From Sulfurimonas sp. (GTDB lineage: Bacteria > Campylobacterota > Campylobacteria > Campylobacterales > Sulfurimonadaceae), in the NCBI GenBank assembly GCA_013791885.1, contig VMSZ01000018.1, positions 1-55,033 of the forward strand: a stretch of DNA of 55,033 nucleotides, written 5' to 3'. Shown here in pieces: positions 19,962 to 51,207 of this stretch; position 1 is the first letter of the stretch; the number at the start of each line of letters is the position of its first letter. The position numbers and the translations under genes are program-made. The notes below the pieces were generated by a model, which saw only the letters and a list, made by a program, of their open reading frames with translations, did not search any database and was not told the DNA's origin.

Positions 19962-21617
19962 ATGTTGGAAATCTTTGTAATTATTCTCACCCTTATCTTA
20001 GTATCAAAAATCCTTGAAGAGGCTACAAAAATTCCTTTTGTACTCCTGATTATTGTCTTATCCTATGGGGCAAATCATCTATTTGATCTCTCTCTTTTGG
20101 GAGATAATTTTCAAAGTGTTATCTATATGATGTTGCCCATCATTCTTATCCCCGATATTTTGGGACTCTCAAGGTCTGAACTCAAAGAAAATTTTTCAAA
20201 TATCTTTTATCTTGCGTTTACTGCAGTACTTATCTCCATAGCCATAGCCGTTGGTATTACCTATACTTTAGACTCTGTTTACGATTTAACTATTTTTCAT
20301 CTGCTCATTCTTTTTACACCGCTTATGGCGACCGATGTAGTCTCAGTGAATGCCATCTTTTCAAGATTAAAAGTTCCCCAAACGCTCAAGCTTTTTGCTG
20401 AGGGAGAGTCTCTATTTAACGACATTACTGCCATGATTATCTTCTTCTTTATCGCGCTTCCAATTTTAAACGGGGAAGATATTTCTTTGCCTGCACTTGC
20501 AGGTGTTGTAAGCTATACGCTTGTACTCTCTGTTCTTATAGGCGCCGTAATCGGGCTTCTTGGCTATTACAGTTTTAAAATTTCAAAAAATAATTTTGAT
20601 GAATTTATCTCTATCTACATCATGGGAAGTCTTGCGTTTTTGCTCGCAGAAAAGATTCACCTCTCAGGCATTTTAGCTGTTGTTGTTTCACTGCTGCTCT
20701 TTAAGTATCTCTTCGACAAAGAGGGTCATTACAGAAAGAAAAACTACAACGCTATTCTCTCCTACCTCAACAAACAAAGCACCAACACCGAGTCTTTTAG
20801 AGCATACAAAAAAGAGGCTCACTACTTTGGTTTGTTTGCAAACGCAGTGATTTTCATCTCAATCGCCAACGTAATCAATCTTGATTTGCTATGGAAATAC
20901 AAACTCGAAATATTATATGTATTTCTACTTACAACCGTTATCCGCTACGCTCTTGTTGCAAGTTTCATTTTCTATAAAAAACTTCCTCTGCGTTGGGGGA
21001 ATATCCTCACACTCTCTGGTATGAAAGGCGGTTTAGCCCTCATTATGATAGTTTCACTAAGTCCTGACTTCATCTACAAAGAGATGTATCTTGCCGTTAC
21101 ACTTGGAGTTGTCATACTGTCAATCTTTCTCTACACTGCGTTTTTAATGAGCTATCTCTTCTTTGAAAAAGATGCCCTTATGATGGACATGGCGCAGGAG
21201 CATAATATCTCTTTTCATGACATCAACGACATTTTACAAAAAGAAGAAAAAAGCGGTGCCTATAACGAAATAATGTTTGAAGACTTTATTGAAAAAGAGA
21301 TAATCAGAACGCAAAGAGACGGTCACCAATTTTCTCTCGTATCTTTTGAAGCCCAAAATTCCACACTCAAAACTATTAATAATGAGCTTATTGGCAAAGG
21401 CGATTATTTTGGCAAAATTGATGAGAAGAACTATGCTGTTTTACTCACAAACTGCACGCTTAACGATGCTCTTGCCTTTAGTGAAAAACTTAAAAAATAC
21501 CTTCATTATGACCATATCGCCATAGCCGAGTATATGGCCGGAGATACGAAAGAGTTTATGCTGGAAAAATTGCATAAGGCCATGAAAGATAAGCAGGAAA
21601 TTGGTGTAGAAGTATAG
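19962..21617 (+). CDS. CPA1-type Na+/H+ antiporter with a C-terminal degenerate GGDEF-like domain
   Basis: A 551-aa inner-membrane cation/proton antiporter. The first about 395 residues hold about 12 helices with family motifs LFTPLMATDVVSVNAIF, LFAEGESLFNDITAMI (the FAEGESLFND motif of NhaP/CPA1) and LSGMKGGLALIM. The C-terminal about 120 residues (from FEDFIEKEIIRTQRDGHQFS) follow the order of a GGDEF domain: a variable first strand, a signature position reading GKIDEKNYAVLL, and a last helix LHKAMKDKQEIG. The GGDEF residues themselves are gone, so c-di-GMP synthesis is unlikely. No ribosome-binding site is visible, because a -10 element sits just before the ATG. Confidence 0.85.
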   Translation: MLEIFVIILTLILVSKILEEATKIPFVLLIIVLSYGANHLFDLSLLGDNFQSVIYMMLPIILIPDILGLSRSELKENFSNIFYLAFTAVLISIAIAVGITYTLDSVYDLTIFHLLILFTPLMATDVVSVNAIFSRLKVPQTLKLFAEGESLFNDITAMIIFFFIALPILNGEDISLPALAGVVSYTLVLSVLIGAVIGLLGYYSFKISKNNFDEFISIYIMGSLAFLLAEKIHLSGILAVVVSLLLFKYLFDKEGHYRKKNYNAILSYLNKQSTNTESFRAYKKEAHYFGLFANAVIFISIANVINLDLLWKYKLEILYVFLLTTVIRYALVASFIFYKKLPLRWGNILTLSGMKGGLALIMIVSLSPDFIYKEMYLAVTLGVVILSIFLYTAFLMSYLFFEKDALMMDMAQEHNISFHDINDILQKEEKSGAYNEIMFEDFIEKEIIRTQRDGHQFSLVSFEAQNSTLKTINNELIGKGDYFGKIDEKNYAVLLTNCTLNDALAFSEKLKKYLHYDHIAIAEYMAGDTKEFMLEKLHKAMKDKQEIGVEV

Positions 21618-21626: not shown

Positions 21627-22808
21627 CTAAAACGCCAGACTCCACTTCAAATAAAACCTTTCATCGCAAGCTTTGAAATCTTTGTTCCTTGAGCTTTGCA
21701 ACATTGCTCCAAGCGTAAAGGAATTATAATTGTTAAGGGTGTAGGTGAGTGTTGGAGAGAGAAAATCCGACTCCTGTTCTCCAAAGCCTTTAATGTAAAT
21801 GAGCGAACCGTCCAAAAAAAGGTTGAAGCTGTAACTCACAGAGAGGGCTCCATAGTAGTTTGAACCCACAAGATTTGAGAGGATTTCGGAATTTCTGTTC
21901 AAAAGCATCTCTTCGTATGTAAAAGTTTTGGAGGTATAAAGCATCTCTGCTGTCAATGTTACGCCGTTTTCAAAACCATAATCAGCCCCTATAAGACCTT
22001 GAAAAAACTCTTTTTCATCTTCGGTAAAAACATTTTGCAGCACACTTTTTATAAACGCACCTTCACATCTCAGCTCTACTCCGGTATCTGCGAGGTTTCC
22101 TTCTATCTCATATCCCAACATCTTTGTATTCTCTGAACTGACAACATCCAAAGCCATATCTGCGAACTCAAAAAATGTTTTGTATCTAAACGCATACTTT
22201 AAACTTTCATCCTCTTTTTGACTCACAACCACACTCACATCAGACATCCCATCCAGGTGTCTTGTATATAAAACTCCGTAAATTCCAAAGGTCTCATCAC
22301 TCTCAAGTGCATAAATATTTTTTGGGTTGAAAGAGTTTGTAGGCGTCCAAATACGCCCTACTCCCATGGAAATATTTTGCAGACCTGCTACAACTCTATT
22401 CTTTTCGTCTTCATAGCCAGCGTAAAATCTGTAAATTTTTGCCGCAGCTGCACCGTTTTCATACTCTTTATAAGGTGACTGCGTTTTAAAAGGAGTGTCG
22501 GATTCTATTTGTTTGAGGAGCGCAAACTCGCTTGCGTTTATATACTCATTTCCAAAATAGTGAATCCCATCAGCAATGATGCTTATAAAAAAACCATCTT
22601 CTGCGTAGCTGCCGTCAAACCTTAGTCTGTCGTAATTGTATAGATAGCTCTCTTCGTTTTCTTGGATTTTACTGTTTTGTGAAATTGTGAAGTTACTGTT
22701 TTCTATTTTATAGTCAAACGCAGCACTCAAAGTATTTGGAAAAAATATAAACGCAGCTACAAAGCTAAAAATAACTCTGTTTTGCTTACATCTACTTCTT
22801 GAAAACAT
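21627..22808 (-). CDS. Predicted outer-membrane beta-barrel protein of the ABC export operon
   Basis: A 393-aa protein with a signal-like N-terminus (hydrophobic about 12-30, ending LSAAFDY). It is then rich in alternating beta-strands (SDVSVVVSQKEDESLKYAFRY is one region) and ends in YLKWSLAF with terminal Phe, which fits an outer-membrane barrel. I do not recognise a named family with certainty. Its start overlaps the ATPase stop by ATGA, so it is made with the LolCDE-like exporter and could be its outer-membrane partner or client. It is the last gene of the operon. Confidence 0.75.
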   Translation of the reverse strand: MFSRSRCKQNRVIFSFVAAFIFFPNTLSAAFDYKIENSNFTISQNSKIQENEESYLYNYDRLRFDGSYAEDGFFISIIADGIHYFGNEYINASEFALLKQIESDTPFKTQSPYKEYENGAAAAKIYRFYAGYEDEKNRVVAGLQNISMGVGRIWTPTNSFNPKNIYALESDETFGIYGVLYTRHLDGMSDVSVVVSQKEDESLKYAFRYKTFFEFADMALDVVSSENTKMLGYEIEGNLADTGVELRCEGAFIKSVLQNVFTEDEKEFFQGLIGADYGFENGVTLTAEMLYTSKTFTYEEMLLNRNSEILSNLVGSNYYGALSVSYSFNLFLDGSLIYIKGFGEQESDFLSPTLTYTLNNYNSFTLGAMLQSSRNKDFKACDERFYLKWSLAF

Positions 22809-23485
22809 CAGACAAGCATTCCGTCTTCAAGTCTGACTATTCGCCTTACACTCTCTTTTATCAACTCGTCATGAGAAGCGAAAACAACGCTTATGCCCTC
22901 TTTTTCATTGAGTTCGAGCATCATCTCTATAAGTGTCTGGGAGTTTTTGGAATCAAGGTTTGCAGTCGGTTCATCCGCTAAAATAATTTTTGGTTTAGAA
23001 GCAACCGCCCGCGCTACTGCCACACGTTGCTGCTGACCTCCACTGAGAGTATTTGGAAGAGATTGTAATTTATTGTCAATTTTTAAAAGTGAAGCCACTT
23101 CTTGTACTCTCTCTTTTATCTGCGCGTCGCTAAAACCTTGAAGCTTCATAATGAAACCGATGTTTTCTTCTACACTTAAAACAGGCACAAGATTATAGGC
23201 TTGAAATACAAAGCCCATTTTATTCAGTCGTATACGCGTTCGTTCTTTCTCATTGAGTAAACTTATCTCCAGCTCATCCAAGAAAATCTTACCGCTGTCT
23301 ATCGTATCTAAAGCACCTATTGCGTTTAAAAGGGTAGTCTTGCCACATCCGGAGGGACCGCTAAAGAGTGTAAACTCTCCATCTTCTATGATTAAGTTTA
23401 TGTCCACAAGAGCATGAACCTCACGTGGTTCATCCTTATAAAAGTATTTATTTACATTTTGCAGCCGTATCACTTTCATCTCCAA
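22808..23485 (-). CDS. LolD/MacB-type ABC transporter ATPase
   Basis: A 225-aa ATPase with Walker [22 protein letters not shown]-loop FVFQAYNLVPVLSVEENI, signature [16 protein letters not shown], Walker B IILADEPTANLDS and an H-loop in FASHDE. ADEPTANLDS is the hallmark of the LolD/MacB/FtsE group, whose permeases act by mechanotransmission rather than as channels. Its likely partners are the two FtsX-type permeases upstream on the same strand, separated by a small periplasmic gene. The stop overlaps the start of the outer-membrane protein. Confidence 0.93.
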   Translation of the reverse strand: MEMKVIRLQNVNKYFYKDEPREVHALVDINLIIEDGEFTLFSGPSGCGKTTLLNAIGALDTIDSGKIFLDELEISLLNEKERTRIRLNKMGFVFQAYNLVPVLSVEENIGFIMKLQGFSDAQIKERVQEVASLLKIDNKLQSLPNTLSGGQQQRVAVARAVASKPKIILADEPTANLDSKNSQTLIEMMLELNEKEGISVVFASHDELIKESVRRIVRLEDGMLV

Positions 23486-23592
23486 AATATTTCATTTATT
23501 TTAAATTGACACAGAGTATAACATGAAAGTTCTTAGCCAAATAGGTTTTATATCTGACTAAGTTTTTTGGGCAGAAGGTCACGAGGAAAAAA

Positions 23593-24042
23593 CTAAGAAA
23601 TTTTACTCAGTGCCTTTATATTTTTATTTTCTAAACTTATTTTGTGGATGTTCTCTAAATCTGCCTTCTCCAATGCAAGCTTATTGCTTTTGTGCACAAG
23701 AGAGAGTATCGTTTCATACGAACTTAAATCAACGCTTTTTCCATATAAAGCAGAGTTGCTAATATAAGAAATAATATCTTCCTGTTTGATTTCACGCATA
23801 TTTTCTAGAATATTTTGAGCCATTAAATCATTTGTATAAGCATCACCTTGCAGGGATTGTGAAACTTTTTTCTGGGCTACACTTTTCTCCAAGCCTCTTC
23901 TATGAAGATTTGAACTTACCATATTTGAGAGAGTATTGACTCTATTGGTATGACTGTTTTTAAGCGCTATACTTACGGGTGAAACCGAAGCAAATACCAT
24001 ATTTGTCAGAAGAACGGAAATAATAATAATTTTTTTATTCAT
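23593..24042 (-). CDS. Small exported protein of unknown function within the ABC operon
   Basis: A 149-aa protein with a signal peptide (about 1-18, VFASVSP) and a helical, polar mature part (SNLHRRGLEKSVAQKKVSQS). No family recognised. It lies between permease and ATPase genes on the same strand, with 85-bp and 107-bp gaps; these are larger than elsewhere in the operon, so it may have its own signals. An AAGGAG-like site precedes its ATG. A periplasmic accessory role is inferred from position. Confidence 0.65.
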   Translation of the reverse strand: MNKKIIIISVLLTNMVFASVSPVSIALKNSHTNRVNTLSNMVSSNLHRRGLEKSVAQKKVSQSLQGDAYTNDLMAQNILENMREIKQEDIISYISNSALYGKSVDLSSYETILSLVHKSNKLALEKADLENIHKISLENKNIKALSKIS

Positions 24043-24127
24043 ATGTAATCTCCTTTTAGTCTTACAAGTTTAATCAATCAAAGCTAATGAAATAAGAATA
24101 GAATTTTCGCGAAACAATAAATTGCAC

Positions 24128-25339
24128 TTATTTCTCAGCTTTTATAACCTCAATAGGATTGAGATTCTTTATTTTTCTCAGCGGTATGATGACACTTAAA
24201 ACCGAAGCACTCATAATGGCTAAAAATGTCGTTGTAAAGTAAGAAAGTTTAATCGTACCATAAATTATGGTCTCATAGCCCCAGCTCTGCAGCGCGTCCG
24301 CAAAAGCACTAAAATCAAGGCCATAGTCTCTGAGGTAAATAAGCAGTAAAAGTCCCAATAATGAACCGCTAAAAAAGCCAATAAGTCCGACAAAGATAGC
24401 TTCGAAATAGATTTGCAGCCGTATATATTTGTACTCCATTCCAACGGCGAGCATAATACCGAACTCACGGATCCTGTCCAATACAGAAACATACATAACG
24501 CCAAAAATTCCGACAAATACCACACTCATGATGATGAAAAAAGTTATGGAGTTAAAAATAACCATCATATCTTCCATCATCTGCATCATTGGCTGGAGTT
24601 CAAAAAAGCTTTTTACATCGAGGGTCGGATATTTTGTTTTTAAAATATTCAGGAGCTTTGCATCATCGCTTGCGATGGCTATTTGTGTTGCGTCCTTGGC
24701 GTCAACTCCCAAGAAAGCGAACATCTTTTTTTTGTCTATAAAAAGCGCATTATTGTCTAAGATTATGTTGCTTGTTTGAACAATTGCACTGATTTTTAAA
24801 GCAATAGAATTAATCTCGCCGCTGCTGTCCTGAGTAGAAAAAACCACTTTGGAACCTACGTTGACCTTGAGCGTTTTGGCAAGTTCTATTCCTATGATTG
24901 CGTTTTTATCTCCAAGAAGAAGCTCTCCTTCTTCTAAAAATTCGCTGAATTTTCCAAATGCCTCTTCATCATCCAGATCTATTCCCCGAGCCTGGGCAAA
25001 AGATGATTTTCTTGCAGTTGAGACAAGTCCATCAGCACTGAGGCGTAAAACAAGCGAGCGGATTTGAGGATTTTTTTGAAGTTCTTCTTCTATCTTGGCT
25101 GCGTTTTGTATACGAAATTTCAACTCTTTGTTGATTCTGTAATCTTTTGCAAAAATGCTGATATCGCCGCTGTCGCTGCGTTTATTTTTCTCAGCCATAT
25201 TTTGCGACATGCCATCATATAAACCTTCAATTCCAAGCATCATGCCCATGCTGATTGCTATCATAAGTACCACAAGCAAAGTCCGTACAGGTCTTACAAA
25301 TGAGTTTTTCCAAGCCATCTTGAGTATAAGCTTAAACAT
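24128..25339 (-). CDS. LolC/E-like (FtsX-type) ABC transporter permease
   Basis: A 403-aa permease with MacB/LolCE topology: one N-terminal helix (about 15-35), a periplasmic core of about 220 residues (SGDISIFAKDY to QPMMQMMEDM), then three helices at about 265-290, 315-345 and 365-390. The FtsX end motif is at KIKNLNPIEVIKAEK. It overlaps the preceding permease gene by 8 bp and is clearly its partner. With the LolD-like ATPase it should form a type VII ABC exporter moving lipoproteins or other cargo out of the inner-membrane outer leaflet. Confidence 0.9.
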   Translation of the reverse strand: MFKLILKMAWKNSFVRPVRTLLVVLMIAISMGMMLGIEGLYDGMSQNMAEKNKRSDSGDISIFAKDYRINKELKFRIQNAAKIEEELQKNPQIRSLVLRLSADGLVSTARKSSFAQARGIDLDDEEAFGKFSEFLEEGELLLGDKNAIIGIELAKTLKVNVGSKVVFSTQDSSGEINSIALKISAIVQTSNIILDNNALFIDKKKMFAFLGVDAKDATQIAIASDDAKLLNILKTKYPTLDVKSFFELQPMMQMMEDMMVIFNSITFFIIMSVVFVGIFGVMYVSVLDRIREFGIMLAVGMEYKYIRLQIYFEAIFVGLIGFFSGSLLGLLLLIYLRDYGLDFSAFADALQSWGYETIIYGTIKLSYFTTTFLAIMSASVLSVIIPLRKIKNLNPIEVIKAEK

Positions 25340-26162
25340 GTCTGCTTGCCTCTATGGGTTCGAAGGAGTTAATGTAAAAATACGGATATAAAATACTTAA
25401 AAAATTGAGCGCATAAATAAGCAAAACATTCCAGGCAATGGTAAAAAGAGAAAAATCAAAAGGTATCTCATCTGAAATAATCCCATAGTCCTTGTACATC
25501 TCTGCAATGCCTTCGATTACAATCGGATTTAAACTGTAGTAGTAGCAGATGGCGGCGGCAATGGGAGCTGCAAGAAAAATAGCAAAACTTGAAAGTATGA
25601 GTATCTCGTAAAATAGAAGATTAAATATATTTTCCGCGCCAAGACCGATACAGCGTAAAACGCCAAACTCTTTGATACGCGAACTCACATTAATAAAGCC
25701 GTAAATCATAATGACAAAAAAGATGACAATTAAAAACATCCCCAGGGAGATGTAGCCAAAGATATTGTCAACTTCCATCGCTTCGACCATAGTTTTCATT
25801 AGCGTTTTCCATGTGAGTGATTCGAGATTTTCATCACCCAGTACTTCAATTATTTTATTATTAATGGCATCAACATTTTCTAAATCATCCACTTTAACGG
25901 TTATATATGAAGCTTTGTTTTGCGAGAGCATAAGCGTATCAAAATAGCTTCTGCTGACAAAAGAGGTACTCAAATCAAATTCAAAAAGACCAGTTTTAAA
26001 AACACCGCAAAGTTTGAAGATATCTGCCGCAAAAGAGTTGTCACTCGCTCCGCCGACAAACGCAACTTCATCGCCGAGCTTCATTCCAAGCCGCTGGACT
26101 AAACCAGAACCCATGTAAAGACAATTTTCTGAGCTCTGTGACAAAAATTCACCCTCAATCAA
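25332..26162 (-). pseudogene. C-terminal part of a frameshifted FtsX-type ABC permease
   Basis: A 276-aa reading frame that begins inside the periplasmic domain (IEGEFLSQSSENCLYMGSGL) and carries the three C-terminal helices (about 137-160, 185-210, 240-265), ending SFEPIEASRHV. It has no N-terminal helix of its own. Read in this frame further upstream, it continues SISSIASSLIEGEF, the natural continuation of GIEPEKEK in the preceding frame. One missing A in the run at 26186-26190 or 26192-26196 would join both parts into a 408-aa permease, matching the 403-aa partner. The TTG at 26162 overlaps the preceding stop, so some coupled translation cannot be excluded. Confidence 0.8.
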
Positions 26163-26557
26163 AGATGAGGCAATAGAACTGATGCTTTTTCTTTTTCCGG
26201 TTCAATCCCCGCAATCATGGAAGCTGCAGAATTGTCATCTGTAGAGAGCAGACCGAAGGTCTCATAACGGGCAGTAAAAGCTTCCACGCCTTCAATATGA
26301 GAGAGTTTCTCTGTGATTGATTTCACCTCTTTTATAAGGTACTCATTTCCGCCGACATCACGATAATCTGTATGATAAATCTCAATAGCACCGGTATAGA
26401 TTTTGAGTGAATTTGCAAGCATCGCCTTGTGCGAACCGTCCTGCATGGAGACAAAAACGATAAAAAGCAGTGTAGAAAGAAAGGTTAAAATGACCGTTGC
26501 AATTGAGCGGCCTTTGTAAAAAAGAATGTTTTTAAACGCAAGAGAAAACATCGCCAA
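26159..26557 (-). pseudogene. N-terminal part of a frameshifted FtsX-type ABC permease
   Basis: A 132-aa frame with the N-terminal membrane helix (about 17-38, TVILTFLSTLLFIVFVSM) and the first part of the MacB-like periplasmic core, which stops abruptly after GIEPEKEKASVLLPHL. In this family GI-P-KE is followed by a segment that leads into EGE-L, which is found in the other frame immediately downstream. The first gene of the minus-strand ABC operon; ribosome-binding site AAGG before the ATG at 26557. Either the gene is broken in this strain, the assembly lost one base in an A-run, or there is slippage. Confidence 0.8.
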
Positions 26558-26574: not shown

Positions 26575-26594
26575 TTTATTTTACTCTTTGTTTT
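26575..26594 (+). repeat. 20-bp direct repeat, left copy
   Basis: TTTATTTTACTCTTTGTTTT, identical to 33089-33108. After a short indel the two copies stay alike for a further 16 bases (14 of 16 match from TTACTT). This copy lies between the ABC operon start and the beta-lactamase-fold gene. Confidence 0.85.
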
Positions 26595-26617
26595 CTTTGT
26601 CTGAGATTACTTGAATA

Positions 26618-26629
26618 TTATTCGAATAA
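26618..26629. promoter_or_regulatory. Small palindrome in the divergent promoter region
   Basis: TTATTCGAATAA is a perfect 12-bp palindrome about 35 bp above the -10 (TATAAT, 26666-26671) of the beta-lactamase-fold gene. It could be an operator; no binding protein can be named. Confidence 0.35.
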
Positions 26630-26665
26630 ATTATAAAGCATGTATATTTTGGAAAAAAAAAGAGA

Positions 26666-26671
26666 TATAAT
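26666..26671 (+). promoter_or_regulatory. -10 element of the hydrolase-sensor operon
   Basis: TATAAT, 26 bases before ATG 26698, with AAAAGG as ribosome-binding site between. It would drive the hydrolase, the binding proteins and the signalling genes, which are closely spaced. Confidence 0.55.
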
Positions 26672-26697
26672 ATAACACAATCACAAAAGGTTTTTCA

Positions 26698-28026
26698 ATG
26701 AAAAGATTTCAGACTATCTGCTTTTACGTAATGGCTGTTTTTATCTCTTCTGCTCTTGGCGCCGAGTACACGCCTGAAAAAGTTGGCTTATCCTCAGAAC
26801 GCCTAAAAAATATAGACACATTTATTGATCAATATATTGATGAAAAGAAGATAAAAGGTGCAGTTGTACTCATCGCCAGAAAAGGTAAGATAGCTTATTT
26901 TAAAGCTTCTGGGGATGCTGATATTGGTAAGCCAATGAAAAAAGATTCTATAATGAGAATCATGTCGATGTCTAAACCTATCACAAGTGTTGCGATCATG
27001 CAACTGTATGAGCAAGGTAAGTTTCTTCTCTCTGACCCTGTTTCAAAATATATTCCAGAATTTAAAAACCAAAAAGTTTTCACTCCTCTTCCTGAAGGCT
27101 CAGGCTTTGCTTACAAACTTGTTCCCCTAAAGCGTGAAGTGACTATACGTGATCTTTTAGCACATACTTCTGGTCTCATGTACATAGGTATTGCTGCAGG
27201 TGTGTACCCGAATGAAGCAGGTCGTAAAGATATGATCGAGATGTATAAAGAAGCTGAGATTAACGATGGATACTGTCGAACAGATGAAGAGATTGGAGAT
27301 ATGGTTAAACGACTTGCAAGACTTCCTTTAATGAAACAACCCGGAGAACAGTGGGAATATGCTCTTAACACTGATGTGCTTGGTTATTTAGTAGAAGTTG
27401 TCTCAGGTATGAAGTTTGACAAATATGTTACTGAGAATATTTTTAAACCTTTACAAATGAACGATACTTATTTTAATGTACCAAAAGAAAAGACTGCACG
27501 TGTTGCCCGTGTATTTAAAAGTGATTGGAAAGGAAGTCTGATAAGGACTACAGATGATGAAGTGCTGACTCAAGGGGAACTTGTGATGTGTCCTAATGAC
27601 GGATATAAAACATCAGGAACATATCTTTCAGGTGGCGGAGGCGTGCTCTCCACGGTTTATGATTATTTTCGATTTTCTCAAATGTTACTTAATGGCGGGA
27701 AACTAGATGGCACTCGAGTGCTCAGCAGAAAAACAGTTGAACTGATGACAGCTACAAACCATATTGGTGAGCATACTCCAGGCTTGTTGCATGATGAAGG
27801 TTGGAAATTTGGCCTTGGATTTGCTATCCAAAAAGACAGAGGACATAATGTTGATGCTGGTGATGTAGGTGCTTTCGAGTGGGCAGGTCTTTATTCTACC
27901 CGCTTTAGTGTAGATCCCAAAGAAGACAAAATTACAATTTTTATGTCTCAGACTACACCGTTTGATCACCACTTTGAATTGTGGGATAAATTACTGGTCC
28001 TTTCGGGCTCGGCAATCGAAGATTAA
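26698..28026 (+). CDS. Exported serine hydrolase of the beta-lactamase class C / esterase fold
   Basis: A 442-aa protein with a signal peptide (about 1-21, SSALGAEY). The catalytic SxxK motif is S90-M-S-K93 (IMSMSKPITSV), and the second motif Y-x-L-N appears in EYALNTDVLGYLVEVVSGM. This points to the broad class C beta-lactamase/DD-peptidase/EstB esterase family; substrate class cannot be told. It starts a plus-strand run: the first binding-protein gene begins 11 bp after its stop. A periplasmic hydrolase next to binding proteins and a kinase could generate or destroy a sensed ligand, which is inference. Confidence 0.88.
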   Translation: MKRFQTICFYVMAVFISSALGAEYTPEKVGLSSERLKNIDTFIDQYIDEKKIKGAVVLIARKGKIAYFKASGDADIGKPMKKDSIMRIMSMSKPITSVAIMQLYEQGKFLLSDPVSKYIPEFKNQKVFTPLPEGSGFAYKLVPLKREVTIRDLLAHTSGLMYIGIAAGVYPNEAGRKDMIEMYKEAEINDGYCRTDEEIGDMVKRLARLPLMKQPGEQWEYALNTDVLGYLVEVVSGMKFDKYVTENIFKPLQMNDTYFNVPKEKTARVARVFKSDWKGSLIRTTDDEVLTQGELVMCPNDGYKTSGTYLSGGGGVLSTVYDYFRFSQMLLNGGKLDGTRVLSRKTVELMTATNHIGEHTPGLLHDEGWKFGLGFAIQKDRGHNVDAGDVGAFEWAGLYSTRFSVDPKEDKITIFMSQTTPFDHHFELWDKLLVLSGSAIED

Positions 28027-28037
28027 GGATATATAAG

Positions 28038-28880
28038 ATGAAAAATATAATCATAAAACCGACGAAGCTTCTTGTTTTATTGATGTTCTTTTTGAGCGTA
28101 CCTCTTACAGCAACAGGACCGCGCGTCTCTTCCAATATTTTAAGTTTGGAAAAAAATGAGGTGTTTGCACTTGATCTTCCTCCTTTTATTTCAACTGAGG
28201 CAGACAAAAACGGAGCCTTGAGCGAGATAGTAAACGCGGTGTTTGCGGAAGAAAAAATCGAGAACAGCATAAGTATAATTCCCCTGCAGAGCATGATAAA
28301 ATACTATCTGACTCAAGATACGACCTTGGCGGTCATGGGACGCCATCTTGGAATAAGCAAAGAAGACAATAAATCACTTATGGAGATACCTCTTTACCTT
28401 TCAAATGAGTACTATCTCTATTATAAACCGCTCCATGCTAAAAATTTGGAATTTAATGGAAAACTTTCAAATCTCAAAGGGCTTAGATATGGTGCTTCGA
28501 GCGGAGAAGAGACTGCCGCCTACGAAAACGCACAGATTAAGGTTGAAAATGGCCGTACTCTTTCCCTGTTTAAAAAATTAAAAAAAGGCACTGTAGATTT
28601 TATCAGTATGCCGACACAGAGTGCTCAATGGATTTTGAAAAAAAACTTTGCACATGAGAGCAAGGATTTTGTGATGATGCAAGGCGGCAGCGGTTCTGTT
28701 TTTATTTCAATCTACTTCAATCTTAAGCATCCTGAGGGAAAAACACTTGCTGGGAGTTTTAAAAAAGGCTTGCAGAGTATTGTTACAAATGGAAAATATG
28801 CTTCCATCCTGGAAAAACATTTGAAAAATCCTGATGATGTCAAATTACAGCTAGAACAGATAAATAAATTTTTAAAATAG
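28038..28880 (+). CDS. Periplasmic solute-binding protein (SBP_bac_3-like), first of two
   Basis: A 280-aa protein with an N-terminal hydrophobic signal (about 9-25) and the two-lobed layout of family-3 binding proteins: FALDLPPFISTEADKNGAL at the start, a hinge near KLSNLKGLRYGASSGEETAAY, and a final YASILEKHL-type helix. No ABC permease or ATPase for it is near; instead a second binding protein and a histidine kinase follow within 8 bp and 2 bp. It may therefore serve as a ligand receptor for signalling rather than for import. Confidence 0.8.
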   Translation: MKNIIIKPTKLLVLLMFFLSVPLTATGPRVSSNILSLEKNEVFALDLPPFISTEADKNGALSEIVNAVFAEEKIENSISIIPLQSMIKYYLTQDTTLAVMGRHLGISKEDNKSLMEIPLYLSNEYYLYYKPLHAKNLEFNGKLSNLKGLRYGASSGEETAAYENAQIKVENGRTLSLFKKLKKGTVDFISMPTQSAQWILKKNFAHESKDFVMMQGGSGSVFISIYFNLKHPEGKTLAGSFKKGLQSIVTNGKYASILEKHLKNPDDVKLQLEQINKFLK

Positions 28881-28888
28881 GATATACG

Positions 28889-29719
28889 GTGCTTCAAATC
28901 ATTCTTGTAACATTCGCTCTCTTGTTTGGATTAGCTCTTAATGCCCAAAATTCGAACACGCTTTCTATTGTGCTAGAAGCAAATGAAGCTCCCCCTTTTT
29001 GGTCAAAAACATTAGCGCACAATGGTATGGGCGGCGAGATTATTTATGAAATATCAAAAGCTGCCGGTATCAATACAAGTATCGTGTTTAAACCTCTCTC
29101 CAGACTTATAGAAGATGACACCAATAATGACCTTGGAAATCCAGCTTTTTATATCGTCAATCAGGATTTTAAAGAGATTATCCCTATCGCGCTTTATTAT
29201 GCTTCCTTTTACTCTTATGCCAAAAATCATAAAAATGACGGAAACAGAAGTAAAGACTTCCAGATTACATCTTTCGACGAACTCAAAGGCAAAAAAATTG
29301 GTTTGCTTAAAGGTACGCTTATAGACCACTCCTATTTTGAAAACAAAGGCATCTTGTTTGAGCAGAGTTATTCACAGGAATCTCTTTTTAAAAAACTCCG
29401 ACTTGGCCGTCTTGACTATGTGATAGAGATCAACCTTGTAGCTCAAGAAGTTATCAAAAAACTTTACCCATCAGAGTTAGATAATTTCATCCATTCAAAT
29501 ATGAACACTTCTCATCCAATTGCTATTATGCTTGCCAACGAGCAGCCAAATGCTCACGAAATTGCAAAAAAATACAAAAAGGGTTTAGATGAGATTATTG
29601 CAAACGGCATCTACCGGAAAATAGTAGAAAAGTATTATTCTCAAGAACCTTTTCCTGAGAATTGGCTTGAAGATTTACAAAGATATACCCAGCTTTATAC
29701 ACTCCAAGAGGATGACTAA
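28889..29719 (+). CDS. Periplasmic solute-binding protein (SBP_bac_3-like), second of two
   Basis: A 276-aa protein starting at GTG 28889, with a signal peptide (about 1-19, GLALNAQN) and binding-protein lobes: VLEANEAPPFWSKTLAHNGM, the hinge-like FDELKGKKIGLLKGTLIDHS, and the C-terminal KGLDEIIANGIYRKIVEKYY. It is distantly similar in layout to the preceding protein, so the pair may come from an old duplication. The histidine kinase gene starts 2 bp after its stop, which strongly suggests a shared sensory role. Confidence 0.8.
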   Translation: MLQIILVTFALLFGLALNAQNSNTLSIVLEANEAPPFWSKTLAHNGMGGEIIYEISKAAGINTSIVFKPLSRLIEDDTNNDLGNPAFYIVNQDFKEIIPIALYYASFYSYAKNHKNDGNRSKDFQITSFDELKGKKIGLLKGTLIDHSYFENKGILFEQSYSQESLFKKLRLGRLDYVIEINLVAQEVIKKLYPSELDNFIHSNMNTSHPIAIMLANEQPNAHEIAKKYKKGLDEIIANGIYRKIVEKYYSQEPFPENWLEDLQRYTQLYTLQEDD

Positions 29720-29721
29720 CT

Positions 29722-31125
29722 ATGCATACACTCACCTATAGCAGCATCAGAGTAAAAATAATCTTCTTGCTTTTTATTGGAACGGCCTCTATTTCCAGCC
29801 TCTTTTCCTATTATAACCACTCCGTTAAAAAAGCATATATGACGCATGAATTGGAAAAAGATGTCGACAGAAAGATCACAAGACTTTCTCAAAACTTAGT
29901 CATACCCCTATGGGAAATAGATACGCAATGGATAGATATGATTGCCGATACCGAGATGCTCGACGAAGTAGTATCTGCCATGATTATCACAGGAGAAGAT
30001 AATCTTAAAATATGCAAAAAACGCAGTACAAATGAAGAGATAATCAACTTATGTGCGAGTGAAAAAGAAGAAACACCGTTTATTTCACGCTCTCTCAAAG
30101 TTTTACACGATGATAAAGAGATAGGAACTGTCACTGTACACATCTCCGACCATCAACTCAATAATGCACTTTTTGAAAACTTTATCTCTAACTTTGCCAT
30201 TACTTTGCTCATTATAATATTCCTGAGTATTGCTCTGTATTTGGCCTTGAATATTTATATTTTAAACCCGCTCAAAAAGATTCTCGATGTTGTTCAATCG
30301 GCTACAAATAATGATTACACCCAAAAAGTGGATATCAGACAAAATGATGAGATAGGTGAACTGGCTCATGGCTTTAATACCATGATAAACAGTATTTTAG
30401 ATAAGGAAGAGATGCTGATTTCTCAGTCCAGACAAGCTGCTATGGGAGAGATGATAAGTATGATAGCCCATCAATGGCGCCAGCCGATTACGGTCATTGC
30501 CATGGGTGCGAACAACCTGCTTATTAATGTCGAGTTAGAAAATTCAGATTCGGAAACTATTACAAACACTGCCAACAAAATACTTGAACAAACTGTTCAC
30601 CTTTCCAAAACTATAGATGATTTTAGAAACTTTTTCAGTCCGAACAAACACAAGGAACTTGTACTGGTCAATGATGTCATTGAAGAAAATTTTGAAGTTA
30701 TTGGGAAAAGTCTGGAAAATAACAATATCGCGTTAAAAAAAGAGTATAACAGCGCTACACCGATTTTCATTTATTCCAGAGAACTTATGCAAGTTTTTAT
30801 CAATATATTAAAAAATGCCAAAGAAGCTCTGGTTGAAAACAAAATCAAGAATCCAACTATCACTGTTTCTACCAAAGAGGACGTAAATAACGTGTACATA
30901 TCTATCTGTAATAACGGAACCACTATTCCTGGTGATATACTATTAAAAATATTTGACCCATACTTTACAACAAAAGATGAAAAAAATGGAACGGGTCTTG
31001 GTCTCTACATGAGTAAGACAATCGTTGAAAAACATCTGCATGGTTCCATAAATGCAGAAAATCAAAAAAACGGCGGAGTCTGTTTTAATATAACATTACC
31101 AAAAGAGACAGATACTAATGAATAA
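29722..31125 (+). CDS. Membrane sensor histidine kinase with HAMP domain
   Basis: A 467-aa kinase. TM1 is at about 10-30, a periplasmic domain of about 120 residues follows, TM2 is at about 157-180 (FAITLLIIIFLSIALYLAL), and the HAMP domain has the end motif NDEIGELAHGFNTMI. The H-box GEMISMIAHQWRQPITVIAM carries the phospho-histidine. The ATPase domain has N-box NILKNAKEAL, and G-boxes FDPYFTTKDEKNGTGLGLYM. The small periplasmic domain could receive one of the two co-encoded binding proteins. It overlaps the downstream REC gene by 8 bp. Confidence 0.93.
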   Translation: MHTLTYSSIRVKIIFLLFIGTASISSLFSYYNHSVKKAYMTHELEKDVDRKITRLSQNLVIPLWEIDTQWIDMIADTEMLDEVVSAMIITGEDNLKICKKRSTNEEIINLCASEKEETPFISRSLKVLHDDKEIGTVTVHISDHQLNNALFENFISNFAITLLIIIFLSIALYLALNIYILNPLKKILDVVQSATNNDYTQKVDIRQNDEIGELAHGFNTMINSILDKEEMLISQSRQAAMGEMISMIAHQWRQPITVIAMGANNLLINVELENSDSETITNTANKILEQTVHLSKTIDDFRNFFSPNKHKELVLVNDVIEENFEVIGKSLENNNIALKKEYNSATPIFIYSRELMQVFINILKNAKEALVENKIKNPTITVSTKEDVNNVYISICNNGTTIPGDILLKIFDPYFTTKDEKNGTGLGLYMSKTIVEKHLHGSINAENQKNGGVCFNITLPKETDTNE

Positions 31126-31546
31126 ATTACAACAGTTACAGAATGATTTGGCTACTGCTAGAGTGTTATATGTGGAAGACGAAGAGGAGGTCAGAATTAT
31201 GACTTTGACTTTTTTTAATAATATTTTTACACATGTTGACAGTGCAGCAAATGGGGAAGAGGGATTGGAACTTTTCAAAAAGAAGCCTTATGCTCTTGTT
31301 ATTACAGACTTAAATATGCCCAAGATAGACGGTCGCGAGATGTTAAAACAAATTAGAGAGTTAGATAAAGATACTGTTCTGATAATTATGACAGCTTCTG
31401 ACAGTAACATCGATGCTTCCGAGATTGTTTGTGATGCTTACATGAACAAACCTGTGAGATTTTTGGAATTTATTGAAACACTTGAACCCTTGAAAGAGAA
31501 AATATTACGCAAAGCGGCTAAATCTGAAACGAAGGAGCTCCCATGA
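31118..31546 (+). CDS. Single-domain response regulator (REC only)
   Basis: A 142-aa CheY-like receiver without an output domain. Acidic residues E20/D21, phospho-acceptor D64 (ITDLNMP), Thr in IMTAS and the conserved Lys in YMNKPVRF are all present. It overlaps both the kinase gene (8 bp) and the REC-HD-GYP gene (ATGA, 4 bp). It may act as a phosphate shuttle or sink between the kinase and the HD-GYP regulator. Confidence 0.92.
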   Translation: MNKLQQLQNDLATARVLYVEDEEEVRIMTLTFFNNIFTHVDSAANGEEGLELFKKKPYALVITDLNMPKIDGREMLKQIRELDKDTVLIIMTASDSNIDASEIVCDAYMNKPVRFLEFIETLEPLKEKILRKAAKSETKELP

Positions 31547-33069
31547 TAGAAACCCTTGTCTTGCAAAGTTTGACTAAAAGTATGAGTGTACTTTATGTTG
31601 AGGATGACAAAGATATTTTATTGGGAGTAGAGCAGTATCTCAAACATTTTTTTAATCGTGTAGACACTGCCCAAAACGGTCAGCTTGGATGGGAAAAATA
31701 TAACTCTGGAAACTATGACCTCGTTCTTACAGATATTTTAATGCCTGTGATGAATGGGCTTGAATTGAGTAAAAAAATACGTGAAGTAAATAAAGACCAA
31801 GAGATAATTATTGTTTCTGCGTACACAAACAGTGAATACTTTGTTGAGTCCATCAAAATTGGCATTAGCGGTTACATTATCAAGCCGATGGATTTAAACC
31901 AGATGAAAGAAGCTTTATATCGAAGTGTCACTAAAATCAATGCCCTAAAAGAGATGGAAAATTTTAAACAAAACCTTATTGAAAAAGTAGCGGAGCGCAC
32001 TACTGAACTGAAGCAATCTATGGAACATGAACGCCAGCTGCAATATGAGCGCATCGATAATTATGAAAAAACCATCTACTCATTTATTGAGATGGTAGAA
32101 CGCAGAGATTCTTACACTGCAGGACACTCCCAGCGTGTTGCTTCTTATGCTAAGATGATTGCGCAGGCAATGGGCTATGAAGCTGACGAATGTGAAAAAC
32201 TATATCAAGCTTCAATTTTGCACGATATTGGAAAAATTGCAACACCTGATGCTGTTTTGTTAAAGCCTGGGAAATTAAATCCTTTAGAGTATAAACTGAT
32301 TCAGGAGCATGTTGTAACCAGCTATCAACTTCTCAATCAAATACCTATGTACAAAGAATTGGCGGATATCGTTCAGTTTCATCATGAACGATATGATGGA
32401 AAAGGTTATCCAAACGGTCTCAAGGGTGATGAAATTCCTCCCCTAACCCGTATTATGATTTTGGCTGATGCATTTGATGCCATAACTACCAACCGTATTT
32501 ACAAAGGGAGAAAAAGCTTAGAAAATGCACTTATAGAGATTGATGCATTAAGAGGAGTGCAATTTCACTCAGACGTTGTTGATGCAGCATTAAAGGTATT
32601 GAAAGATGTCAAAATAGACGATAGAATTCATCAGCTTCCCATTACAGAGCTTGAAGAGGAGAGATTTGCTTATTTCTTTAAAGACTCACTCACCAATATA
32701 TACAACAAAAATTATCTTGAACTTATTTTAAATAGAAATCATGATGAAAAACTTTATCATTTCATATCTGCTGTTTTTATAGAGAATTTTTCGCAATATA
32801 ATGAAAGATTTAATTGGAAAGCCGGAGACAGCTTTCTCTGTGATGTTGCAGATTCTTTAAAACTGACGTATCCAAACAGCCTGGTCTTTCGTATTTATGG
32901 CGACGATTTTCTACTTTTAAGCAAGTCCCCTTTAGATATTGATATAAAAGTATTAGAAGCGCTACAAGGGGTAAAAGAGAGTGAGATTATATTTAATGTA
33001 AAGATGTACAATCTAGATCAAGACAATATCAATGATCTTCATGATCTTGAACTTCTACTGCTGAAGTAA
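31543..33069 (+). CDS. REC-HD-GYP response regulator with degenerate C-terminal GGDEF-like domain
   Basis: A 508-aa protein. REC domain: E20/D21/D22, D64 (LTDILMP) and K in YIIKPMD. A coiled-coil linker at about 140-180 leads to a full HD-GYP c-di-GMP phosphodiesterase: HSQRVASYAK, ILHDIGKIATPD, the HHERYDGKGYP motif and ILADAFDAITTNR. From about residue 385 a third region starts DSLTNIYNKNYLE, like the DxLTxLxNR entry of GGDEF domains, and the signature reads YGDDFLLLS, so it is a decayed GGDEF. The phosphodiesterase is probably controlled by the co-encoded kinase. Confidence 0.93.
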   Translation: MIETLVLQSLTKSMSVLYVEDDKDILLGVEQYLKHFFNRVDTAQNGQLGWEKYNSGNYDLVLTDILMPVMNGLELSKKIREVNKDQEIIIVSAYTNSEYFVESIKIGISGYIIKPMDLNQMKEALYRSVTKINALKEMENFKQNLIEKVAERTTELKQSMEHERQLQYERIDNYEKTIYSFIEMVERRDSYTAGHSQRVASYAKMIAQAMGYEADECEKLYQASILHDIGKIATPDAVLLKPGKLNPLEYKLIQEHVVTSYQLLNQIPMYKELADIVQFHHERYDGKGYPNGLKGDEIPPLTRIMILADAFDAITTNRIYKGRKSLENALIEIDALRGVQFHSDVVDAALKVLKDVKIDDRIHQLPITELEEERFAYFFKDSLTNIYNKNYLELILNRNHDEKLYHFISAVFIENFSQYNERFNWKAGDSFLCDVADSLKLTYPNSLVFRIYGDDFLLLSKSPLDIDIKVLEALQGVKESEIIFNVKMYNLDQDNINDLHDLELLLLK

Positions 33070-33088
33070 TCAATGTTCTAAATTCTGC

Positions 33089-33108
33089 TTTATTTTACTC
33101 TTTGTTTT
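33089..33108 (+). repeat. 20-bp direct repeat, right copy
   Basis: TTTATTTTACTCTTTGTTTT, identical to 26575-26594 and in the same orientation. It lies 19 bp after the stop of the REC-HD-GYP gene, in the 210-bp gap before the soluble kinase gene. A TATAAT for that kinase lies at 33257-33262; nothing else is recognised in the gap. Confidence 0.85.
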
Positions 33109-33279
33109 GGGTTACTTTAATTTTATTTATTTTGTGATTAATTATATGAACATTTCTAAAAACAGATAAAAATATCAACTTTATATGAGTTCTTTTAATT
33201 TTGTCATAACAGCTCTTTTATCTAAAAATATTTCTTTGATTAGAGTTATCATTCGCTATAATAAGCCAATCTTAAATAA

Positions 33280-34194
33280 GTGAAACAAATGCAAGAAGAT
33301 GCAAATCAAAAAATAATCGATGAAATTGTTGCACTTTCAAAGCTCTCAAATCCCAGGCTGAGAGAACAAACATTAAAGCTTATAGAAATATATCATCAGC
33401 AAAAAAAGAAGCAGGAAAAAGAGCAGCAGCGACATCGTAAAATGCTTCAGGTGCTCGATAAACGCGACAGCGCCATTTACGAAGCCAACACCAAAAAAGA
33501 TAAACTCCTCAAGCAGCAATCTAAAATGGCCTCTATGGGTGAGATGATGGACGCGGTCGCACACCAATGGAGACAGCCGCTCAATTCCATCAGCATGCTC
33601 AACGATATGCTTGTCGATGACTTTAAAAATTCTCTGGTAGATAAAGCATATATTGACGATATGACACAAACTGTTCATTCACAAATAGAGCATATGGTCA
33701 GTACACTCAATGAGTTTCGAACTTTTTTCAGACCTTCAAAAGACAGCTGTGATTTTTCCATCAGACAATGTATTTTTAGCGTTGAAATACTTATGAAAGA
33801 TGAACTTATAAAAAACAATGTCAATGTTCACGTAAACATAGATGAAGAGATAATTATCCATGGTCAAATCAATGAGTTTAAACACCTCTTTTTAAATCTT
33901 TTAAGCAACTCCATAGATGCCTATAATGAGAAACAAATTCAAACCCGAAATATCCATATCAGGGCTTTCCCTAAAGAAGATGCAATTCACATAGAATTTG
34001 AAGATGATGCTCTTGGAATTCCGGACAATATCATCAAAGATATTTTTAAACCAAATGTTACGACCAAAGAAGACGGAAAAGGTACGGGAATTGGACTCTA
34101 TATGAGCTCACAAATCGTACAAAAACATAACGGCGTTTTAAGAGTTCACAATGCTAACAATGGCGCTATCTTCACTATCTACATAAAAAAATAA
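33280..34194 (+). CDS. Soluble histidine kinase with N-terminal coiled coil
   Basis: A 304-aa kinase with no membrane segment. A highly charged helix at about 25-75 (QQKKKQEKEQQRHRKML) probably forms a coiled coil. The H-box is GEMMDAVAHQWRQPLNSISM, the N-box NLLSNSIDAYNEK, and the G2 region KEDGKGTGIGLYMSSQI. The start is uncertain: GTG 33280 or ATG 33289, neither with a good ribosome-binding site. There is no receiver gene directly after it; the REC-HD-GYP gene 210 bp upstream is a possible partner. It converges on the LolA-like gene. Confidence 0.88.
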   Translation: MKQMQEDANQKIIDEIVALSKLSNPRLREQTLKLIEIYHQQKKKQEKEQQRHRKMLQVLDKRDSAIYEANTKKDKLLKQQSKMASMGEMMDAVAHQWRQPLNSISMLNDMLVDDFKNSLVDKAYIDDMTQTVHSQIEHMVSTLNEFRTFFRPSKDSCDFSIRQCIFSVEILMKDELIKNNVNVHVNIDEEIIIHGQINEFKHLFLNLLSNSIDAYNEKQIQTRNIHIRAFPKEDAIHIEFEDDALGIPDNIIKDIFKPNVTTKEDGKGTGIGLYMSSQIVQKHNGVLRVHNANNGAIFTIYIKK

Positions 34195-34204
34195 AGACAT
34201 TTCA

Positions 34205-34933
34205 CTATCTTGAATAGCGCTTCAAAGCACTTTTTGTAAAATACTCGTCAGATATTTTACTGTCGTAGACTATTTCATTCAAAAATATCTCTGTGTAGTT
34301 TTGCGGTTTCTCGAGGGAACTGACTTTCCAGTACGTTGGAATGAAGTACTTTCCAAACTGCTTTACATCCTCGTAGATGAAAAATCTCACCTCTTTGTCC
34401 TCTTCATCATAAAAAACATCTTTGATTGGGGTGTAGTTTGTGGTGTCTATGTTTGTGATTATTTTACCCCACACGACGGCCGCGTTTTCTTTTGGAATGA
34501 GCTCAAGGGTAGTGATATTGCCCTCTTTTTTGAGGATTTTCGCGTCATAGTCATCCACAATGGAGCTCTGCTTTACCATGTCATCATTGGTAATGTCGCT
34601 TCCCATCCAGTTTTGCAGCATCATTGAAGGCGGGATTTTTATGACTCTCTCGATTTTGGGAACGTATTGCCACATTTGATTGTCTAAACTCAAGAAGGTA
34701 ATACCTCTGTCTTTGGGCGGATAGAGGATTTTAGTGAAACTTTTCTTATCTCCCTGCGAGTAACTTTCTATTTCCATACTTCGTTCATGGGAAGAAGAGA
34801 CAACTTTCATACTCATTTTGAGGTAGATGTCTTCACCACGCATATTTTGGTCAAGTTTTTTGATGATGTCATCAGCCTCATTAGCCAGCAGAAGTGCAGT
34901 AAAAGTAAAAAAAATGAAGAAAATTCTTCGCAT
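34205..34933 (-). CDS. LolA-like outer-membrane lipoprotein-sorting family protein
   Basis: A 242-aa periplasmic protein with a signal peptide (about 1-17, ALLLANEA). The body matches the LolA-like family often paired with FtsX-type permeases: YSQGDKKSFTKILYPPKDRG, LDNQMWQYVPKIERVIKIPP and MLQNWMGSDITNDDMV are highly typical. The fold is a half-open barrel that shields a hydrophobic cargo. Its natural partners, the LolCDE-like permeases and ATPase, lie 7.6 kb away on the same strand with a block of plus-strand signalling genes between. It is convergent with the soluble kinase gene. Confidence 0.88.
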   Translation of the reverse strand: MRRIFFIFFTFTALLLANEADDIIKKLDQNMRGEDIYLKMSMKVVSSSHERSMEIESYSQGDKKSFTKILYPPKDRGITFLSLDNQMWQYVPKIERVIKIPPSMMLQNWMGSDITNDDMVKQSSIVDDYDAKILKKEGNITTLELIPKENAAVVWGKIITNIDTTNYTPIKDVFYDEEDKEVRFFIYEDVKQFGKYFIPTYWKVSSLEKPQNYTEIFLNEIVYDSKISDEYFTKSALKRYSR

Positions 34934-47836: not shown

Positions 47837-47865
47837 AAAATACTTCTCGCATATAAAATTGCGCG

Positions 47866-47871
47866 ATTATA
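47866..47871 (-). promoter_or_regulatory. -10 element of alaS
   Basis: On the minus strand the sequence reads GGGTATAATCG, a consensus -10, about 30 bases before the alaS ATG. No clear -35 is seen. Confidence 0.5.
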
Positions 47872-47924
47872 CCCTAAAAAGGCTCTAGAGGACTTTAAAA
47901 GCTAACTATTTACAAAGAAGTGAG

Positions 47925-47930
47925 TATAAT
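47925..47930 (+). promoter_or_regulatory. -10 element of the CorA-type transporter gene
   Basis: GAGTATAATTT, about 25 bases before ATG 47956. Because it lies inside the longer frame from GTG 47920, it also argues for the downstream start. Confidence 0.5.
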
Positions 47931-47955
47931 TTTTCAGCAAAAGAAAAGGTCTCAA

Positions 47956-48750
47956 ATGCAAAATGTAGAAAATATTCTCGACGAACTCCATCTTAAAGAT
48001 TTACAAAACGATAAACACCCTTCTTATTTTGACATCAACGACGGCTACAATATGTTTATTATAAGGTTGCCTATTTTTGAAGATAAACTGCGATTCCAGT
48101 CTTTTGGTTTTATCTTTACAAAACATACGAGCTACTTCTATAACATTGAGGAAAAAACATTTCAAAAATTCAATAATCGCTTTCGAGAGCCTTACGAGTT
48201 TATCAACACTCACATTAACGATTTTATGAAAAACTTCATCAAGTACCAAGAGACTATCCAGGAGATGGAAGAGTTACTCTACTCAGACCATGATACAAAA
48301 GATTTTATGAGTACCTGGTTTGGACTAAAACGCGACATTACGAGAGTGGAAAGTGTTTTAGAAAAAGCACTCTATGCTATGACTGATTTTATAGAACATT
48401 ATGAAATCGATGCTACAAACGAAGGCTTTTTGGTCAACAATTATGCCGATTTGCATGAGCATCTTGAACGAAGCAAACACTCCTCAACTTTGCAACTGAG
48501 CAAACTCGACTATATTTACAACTTTTACAACACAAGAACCAATGAGCGCATGAACCGCCTCATTTACATTCTCACTATTATCTCCGCTGTCTTTTTACCG
48601 CTGAATCTTCTGGTTGGATTTTTTGGAATGAATACAACGGATCTTCCCTTTACCGCAGAGGCAAATGGGACCAAAAATGTCATCATGACGATGACGGTAG
48701 TTTTTATCATCTCGTCTATTGTTGTTTTGTTTTGGAAAAAAAAGGCTTAA
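47956..48750 (+). CDS. corA: CorA-family divalent metal transporter
   Basis: A 264-aa inner-membrane Mg2+/Co2+/Ni2+ channel-type transporter. A long cytoplasmic helical part precedes two C-terminal helices (about 203-225 and 238-260) with the GMN selectivity motif in VGFFGMNTTDLPF. It is shorter at the N-terminus than classical CorA (about 315 aa), as seen in some Campylobacterota copies. The start is ATG 47956 with AAAAGG before it; the upstream GTG 47920 would place the promoter within the gene. Confidence 0.9.
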   Translation: MQNVENILDELHLKDLQNDKHPSYFDINDGYNMFIIRLPIFEDKLRFQSFGFIFTKHTSYFYNIEEKTFQKFNNRFREPYEFINTHINDFMKNFIKYQETIQEMEELLYSDHDTKDFMSTWFGLKRDITRVESVLEKALYAMTDFIEHYEIDATNEGFLVNNYADLHEHLERSKHSSTLQLSKLDYIYNFYNTRTNERMNRLIYILTIISAVFLPLNLLVGFFGMNTTDLPFTAEANGTKNVIMTMTVVFIISSIVVLFWKKKA

Positions 48751-48761
48751 TGCCTTTTTTT
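48736..48761. terminator. Bidirectional terminator between corA and the diguanylate cyclase gene
   Basis: An A8-GGC / GCC-T7 hairpin with a 5-base loop, giving T-runs for both strands. It covers the corA stop (48748-48750) and reaches the stop of the convergent gene (48760-48762). Confidence 0.8.
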
Positions 48762-50283: not shown

Positions 50284-50292
50284 CTTACCATC

Positions 50293-51066: not shown

Positions 51067-51150
51067 TTCTAACTCCTCTCTTTAAAGTATTAAAGTTTTC
51101 AATGTATATTTCTCATTGTACTTGTAAATTGCTAAAATTTTATACAGTTT

Positions 51151-51183
51151 TGTAACCTTTTGGAGATTTTTCTGTATTATACT
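51151..51183 (+). promoter_or_regulatory. Promoter of the 79-aa gene with a possible half Pho box
   Basis: TATACT (51178-51183) is a good -10. TGTAAC (51151-51156) lies exactly 21 bp upstream, the position of the distal half-site in the Pho-type promoters of this window, but the proximal half reads GGAGAT and does not match. Confidence 0.3.
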
Positions 51184-51207
51184 TACTGAACTTATTAACA
51201 GAGAGAA

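Follow-up and report, generated by a model that had tools for sequence, protein, structure and literature searches.

Gene content of the locus

The stretch of DNA analysed here (the window) comprises positions 1 to 55,033 of contig VMSZ01000018.1 of a Sulfurimonas sp., whose genome is a draft of 2.52 Mb in 75 contigs. In this window seven plus-strand genes lie between a lolA-like gene and an ABC export operon (21627-26557), both on the minus strand, and keep them 7.6 kb apart (Table 1). An earlier note, made from the sequence alone, described this arrangement as a lolA-like gene split from a LolCDE-like operon by seven signalling genes, and proposed that the block had been acquired later. The coordinates, the strands and the number of genes were right, but "signalling" does not hold for all seven: the first gene encodes a serine hydrolase, and the second and third encode binding-protein-like products. 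Nor does the block form one unit, since its seventh gene is a genus-typical neighbour of leuA that stands outside a module formed by the other six.

Table 1. Features at the lolA-like gene/export operon locus, in window coordinates
Feature	Position	Strand	Basis or remark
393-aa (amino acid) operon protein, no known family	21627-22808	-	comparison of loci
ABC ATPase	22808-23485	-	family match
149-aa gene, no known family	23593-24042	-	inside the operon in the window, G110 and G049 among the compared loci
Permease 2, FtsX/MacB type	24128-25339	-	family match
Permease 1, split by a one-base frameshift near 26185	25332-26557	-	family match, comparison with relatives
20-bp repeat copy 1, native element upstream of permease 1	26575-26594	-	same place in G050 and G131; variants in G031 and G057
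Whole insert, 7.6 kb, deduced ends	26613-34204		left, 38-bp match to G050 spacer; right, lolA stop; heptamer-poor
Secreted serine hydrolase, beta-lactamase-like family	26698-28026	+	PF00144, E 2e-66; 5/135 genomes
Periplasmic binding protein 1	28038-28880	+	type II binding-protein fold (predicted); 5/135 genomes
Periplasmic binding protein 2	28889-29719	+	weak SBP_bac_3 match; alignment
HAMP histidine kinase, membrane	29722-31125	+	family match
Single-domain response regulator	31118-31546	+	PF00072
Response regulator with HD-GYP (RR-HD-GYP) and weakly matching GGDEF domain	31543-33069	+	family matches
20-bp repeat copy 2, at module/soluble kinase join	33089-33108	-	exact match
Soluble histidine kinase, separate part of the insert	33280-34194	+	HisKA and HATPase_c; 56/135 genomes; leuA neighbour
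lolA-like gene, first of the ancestral operon	34205-34933	-	PF17131 LolA_like, E 6e-46; precedes permease 1 in 31/34 loci

Gene order in related genomes

Relatives were taken from a genus set of 135 genomes (Sulfurimonas by its named members) and are designated by codes of the type G001. A search with the lolA-like protein gave matches in 84 of them at E<=0.001. True orthologues, with at least 56% identity, occur in about 37 genomes, that of the window counted, and the remaining matches are distant LolA-like paralogues, three closer copies at 47-50% identity, or fragments. Permease 2 is present in 36 genomes of the set. We compared 35 operon loci from 34 genomes other than that of the window, which are all the places with permease 2 except the window itself and a fragment in G081. 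In 34 of these loci, three distant copies among them (G109, G133 and a second copy in G110), the lolA-like gene stands in line with permease 1 on one strand. G081 falls outside the 34, as do G028, G046, G052, G061, G071 and G125, which have a lolA orthologue or fragment and no match to permease 2.

The results showed that the two genes are adjacent in 31 of the 34 in-line loci, with gaps of -7 to 54 nt. Wider gaps were observed in three (743 nt in G131, 1153 nt in G059 and 3236 nt in G057), and in G031 the lolA-like gene lies about 19 kb off on the opposite strand. The uninterrupted pair is thus the rule, which is the outcome that, according to the earlier note, would support insertion. In a tree of the four concatenated operon proteins the window is sister to G110 (support 1.000), and both belong to a clade with G050, G031 and G131 (0.998). 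The lolA/permease 1 junctions of G110 and G050 are uninterrupted; the G110 lolA-like gene is 81% identical to that of the window, and the outer flanks of G110 are as in the window, with a DEAD helicase gene and the neighbours 36350, 37468 and 38099 beyond lolA and with leuA beyond the operon. Because G110 and G050 are uninterrupted and G110 keeps both flanks in window order, we concluded that the split in the window is derived and that the block came in. Conservation of the same order across distant Campylobacterota would have told against acquisition; the block was seen between the lolA-like gene and the operon in no other locus examined.

The same junction carries other cargo in the three loci with wide gaps: MazE/MazF-type genes in G131, a GGDEF protein in G059, and in G057 (L062:7921-11023) AbiEii/DUF6088 genes between two permease 1 starts, together with transposase-like and HsdR-like fragments. 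This conserved export-operon junction has accordingly accepted unrelated cargo at least four times. Inserts also occur at other boundaries of the operon, namely between permease 2 and the ATPase in G110 and G049 and after the ATPase in G013 and G064; between the overlapping permeases none was seen in the compared loci. The insert of G110, 4.4 kb in size, contains NucS_C-like and HD-domain genes alongside the 149-aa gene. Very low synteny through reshuffling is described for Epsilonproteobacteria in a published report (PMC3847290), and the neighbourhood of this locus fits that description.

Two parts of the insert

The insert consists of a rare six-gene module and a genus-typical soluble kinase. 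Within the genus set, the hydrolase and binding protein 1 are found in five genomes, whose named records read Sulfurimonas sp., Campylobacterales or Helicobacteraceae. G106 has all six module genes in collinear order, along with an additional regulator. Five of them run collinear in G123, G132 and G067, where the RR-HD-GYP gene is transcribed divergently. Nowhere in these four genomes does the module adjoin lolA. Outside the genus, Mariprofundus sp. KV has the hydrolase, two binding proteins and a hybrid kinase in the order of the window, so that a rare sensory cassette is common to this genome and Mariprofundus. Among 346 other genomes, sampled evenly across the phylum, there was no match to binding protein 1; the four other carriers of the module were evidently not in this sample. 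In a plasmid search binding protein 1 had no match, and the hydrolase had only relatives below 60% identity, in 20 records.

Neighbouring genes of the module differ in how closely they match the same relative. Compared with G106, the hydrolase is 84% identical (L082:9854-11104) and the adjacent binding protein 1 is only 37% identical; compared with G123, the values are 67% and 58%. From these uneven identities the module looks like a recombinant mosaic.

Binding protein 1 had no Pfam match. Its AlphaFold model (mean predicted local distance difference test score, pLDDT, 80.7) matched an arginine-binding protein in Foldseek with an E value of 9e-15, so that in the module a gene for a predicted type II binding-protein fold adjoins a membrane histidine kinase, with no transporter genes. 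Binding proteins are known to act as co-sensors of two-component systems in ChvE-VirA, LuxPQ and TorT-TorS. The module resembles these systems in that genes for binding proteins adjoin that for a membrane histidine kinase and transporter genes are missing from it; it differs from them in having two binding proteins and a secreted serine hydrolase, and in an output formed by a response regulator and an HD-GYP protein. A literature search, which had most subscription journals outside its reach, found nothing on this module.

The soluble kinase, in contrast to the module, is present in 56 of the 135 genomes at E<=1e-60, and it adjoins leuA in all nine non-window loci checked (L092-L100). The tree of this kinase was too poorly resolved to place the window copy, and the 171 bp upstream of the gene matched only themselves in a search of the source genome.

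The 20-bp repeat

The earlier note had pointed to a 20-bp direct repeat that brackets six of the seven genes. The repeat is exact and occurs at only these two places in the 2.52-Mb genome (reversed control 0), but it is not the footprint of the insertion. In the genus set, exact copies were found twice in the window, once in G050 and once in G131, and all except window copy 2 lie upstream of permease 1; G031 has a variant with 4 mismatches and G057 one with 2 mismatches. In G050, 57 nt separate lolA from permease 1, and this spacer holds the element once. Window positions 26575-26612 are 92% identical to the G050 spacer over 38 bp, reaching the stop of the G050 lolA-like gene. Because of this match, copy 1 and the next 18 bp count as native spacer, and the start of the insert is placed at about 26613. 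A simple target-site duplication is thereby ruled out, for the 18 native bp that follow copy 1 on the module side would then have to adjoin copy 2. The flanks of copy 2 showed no clear kinship to the spacer, with weak similarity (shuffle fractions on the lolA side 0.044 to 0.46), and we take copy 2, where module and kinase meet, to be filler or a duplicated scrap.

The element contains the hexamer TAAAAT and is identical at 20 of 20 positions across genomes whose permease 2 is 71-75% identical to that of the window. For these two reasons it is likely to be a promoter or regulator site, predicted to serve permease 1. We also considered it as a mobile site and rejected this: no further exact copy was found in the 135 genomes, and the matches with one mismatch elsewhere (6 places in 6 genomes; reversed control 2) lie in unrelated contexts. 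At the outer ends of the insert an 8-bp direct match, CTTGAATA (26610-26617 and 34209-34216), was noticed by eye; taken as a duplication it would imply an ancestral lolA-like gene without its usual stop, and it is only suggestive.

The TGCGTTT heptamer

The heptamer TGCGTTT is over-represented in the source genome, with 80 copies in the 55 kb of the window (1.45 per kb) and 1263 in 949 kb of the genome (1.33 per kb). The insert (26613-34204) holds 2 copies, at 28526 and 30019, where the rate in the remainder of the window predicts 12.5 (Poisson P 3e-4), and 2.9% of 962 overlapping genome windows of the size of the insert hold 2 or fewer. Depletion of the heptamer, as given in the earlier note, therefore stands, with the count corrected from about one to 2 and the window rate from about 1.3 to 1.45 per kb. 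The 17-kb locus of G110 has 23 copies, and none of them falls within its 4.4-kb insert, for which 8 would be expected by arithmetic. Since 2 compare with 12.5 expected and 0 with 8, both inserts appear as gaps in the repeat. The homologues of the module in other carriers hold 0, 0, 0, 1 and 0 heptamers, in genomes that are themselves not rich in the word.

TGCGTTT is about 6-fold above second-order expectation and 1.15-fold above fifth-order expectation, as its hexamers are enriched too. The two strands carry 638 and 625 copies, and within contigs no strand bias reached significance (chi-square 59.9, 51 degrees of freedom). Its single-base variants are mostly not enriched, GGCGTTT reaching 2.4-fold, and its density is 1.39 per kb in coding and 0.89 per kb in non-coding DNA, with a frame preference. 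The 9-mer CTGCGTTTA has at least 50 copies in 30 of the 135 genomes and in most others is near the level of the reversed-word control; 664 copies were counted in the window genome, 782 in G086, 721 in G109 and 519 in G110.

The heptamer thus shares with DNA uptake sequences (DUS) and uptake signal sequences (USS) that it is short, over-represented on both strands and lineage-specific. In Neisseria the uptake words form terminator pairs; TGCGTTT differs in showing no excess of inverted pairs.

Uptake sequences are absent from recently acquired genes, and the gonococcal genetic island has about 10% of their usual density, according to a review (PMC2734928). The likeness to our case is that acquired DNA forms a gap in a species-specific word (about 10% there, 2 of 12.5 here); the difference is that the uptake role of the word is here only a candidate one and that no integration site of the dif kind is present in the insert. 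The source genome encodes a ComEC-family protein, which fits with competence and is no proof of it. On sequence grounds we tentatively suggest that TGCGTTT, or about [CT]TGCGTTT[AGT], may be an uptake-sequence-like repeat of a minority of lineages of the genus, in which foreign inserts are visible as gaps. A Chi-like or a chromosome-organising word are the alternatives; the lack of strand bias speaks against the former. Within the reach of the literature search mentioned above, no report was found on the heptamer or on an uptake-sequence system in Campylobacterota.

Origin of the insert

Family searches found no integrase or transposase among the seven genes of the block, and there is no tRNA gene in the window. 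Since integrase, transposase and a clean target duplication are all missing, entry was most likely by recombination of imported DNA. Taken as a whole, the data make it very probable that the rare module and the separate soluble kinase were inserted later where the lolA-like gene meets permease 1, likely in this way.

Several observations weigh against this interpretation. The sister locus in G110 is without the 20-bp element, which must have been lost there or gained more than once. We found no strain with an empty site closer than G110, and for this reason the exact ends of the insert and the number of events are inferred. Guanine-plus-cytosine (GC) content gives the insert no special place in the genome (17th percentile), and neither do its tetranucleotides (42% of genome windows deviate more) or the codon use of its genes (11th to 58th percentile), the background being 60 contigs, or 894 kb of the 2.52 Mb, with at most the first 20 kb of each contig and partly masked. 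Composition was consequently dropped as evidence of acquisition, the heptamer being the sole difference. The earlier note would have counted such uniformity against acquisition; as the known relatives of the module are mostly of the same genus, a difference need not be expected, and the test is a weak one. Finally, the window has a second heptamer-free stretch of 4.9 kb (46694-51606), so depletion alone is no proof, just as the note had cautioned.

The module and the kinase could have arrived together, as a single 7.6-kb segment in which they already lay side by side in the donor. This is possible though rather unlikely: the whole stretch is heptamer-poor and both parts sit at one junction, but their distributions differ (5 versus 56 of 135 genomes), they are apart in G106, G123, G132 and G067, and copy 2 of the repeat lies between them.

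It is improbable that the 20-bp element is an attachment site at which defence and signalling cassettes integrate site-specifically, like the cargo of integrons or integrases. Two direct copies do flank the six genes, the empty site of G050 has a single copy, and interruption affects 4 of the 5 loci with the element and 1 of the 31 others (Fisher P 4e-4). That association is weakened by the kinship of the carriers, which belong mostly to one clade; moreover, elsewhere in the genus set there are just the scattered one-mismatch matches, the block has no recombinase, and native spacer runs past copy 1 on the module side.

Departure of the lolA-like gene from the operon, with no movement of the block, has a parallel in the displaced gene of G031 and is very improbable here, as in G110 the gene keeps its outer neighbours and the operon keeps leuA, both flanks being in place. 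An assembly artefact at a junction, which the 75-contig draft and an apparent frameshift beside the insert might bring to mind, is hardly credible: insert DNA runs on directly both from copy 1 and its native flank and from the native end of lolA, most assemblies would not be misled by a repeat of 20 bp, and its collapse would bring in no foreign genes.

Proposed function and significance

Under the interpretation of later insertion, the six-gene module would be a rare, patchily distributed sensory cassette that entered an ancestral export operon. Judging from families and gene order, the secreted serine hydrolase may make or destroy a ligand; its place beside the binding proteins suggests such processing. 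The two binding proteins would carry the ligand and the membrane kinase would read it: being periplasmic recognition parts without any transporter, they most likely feed the kinase. Output would consist in phosphorylation of the receiver protein and of the RR-HD-GYP protein, a presumed cyclic di-GMP phosphodiesterase. The soluble kinase, a separate gene that typically neighbours leuA in the genus, would have ended up at the same place. Permease 1 appears to have retained its own conserved upstream element, probably a promoter. Unless the exporter has been disabled by the frameshift, the two parts of the split operon are probably still transcribed separately: lolA would have a promoter of its own, and permease 1 would use the conserved element.

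The insertion itself is a fairly ordinary gene-transfer event, though a well resolved one. Its wider value is that the block and the independent G110 insert are both poor in, or without, a six-fold over-represented and lineage-limited heptamer. If that word guides uptake, these genomes would have an uptake-sequence system in Campylobacterota, and the sorting of own from foreign DNA in these bacteria would become testable.

The export operon

The exporter is LolCDE-like in its layout: in relatives, a predicted LolA-like carrier, two FtsX-type permeases and an ATPase are encoded in one operon. It differs from LolCDE with LolA in that the putative carrier belongs to PF17131 LolA_like, an additional 393-aa operon gene is present, and the NCBIfam cut-offs for LolCE and LolD are missed. 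The permeases scored 78.0 and 63.8 bits against TIGR02212 (LolCE equivalog, cut-off 362.45), the lower score being that of a split fragment, and the ATPase scored 182.2 bits against TIGR02211 (LolD equivalog, cut-off 307.75); the name LolCDE-like thus fits only loosely. Permease 1 is read as two open reading frames, 26159-26557 and 25332-26162, which in relatives are consecutive in-frame parts of one permease. The frameshift, a missing base beside short A runs, is absent from the relatives and could be a true mutation or a sequencing error.

Two further observations concern the genes on either side. In codon use the outlier of the region is the lolA-like gene (GC at third codon positions 0.48, top among 662 genes), despite its being ancestral there. 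Between leuA and the operon the window has a Na+/H+ exchanger gene (19962-21617) that occurs in none of the compared loci.

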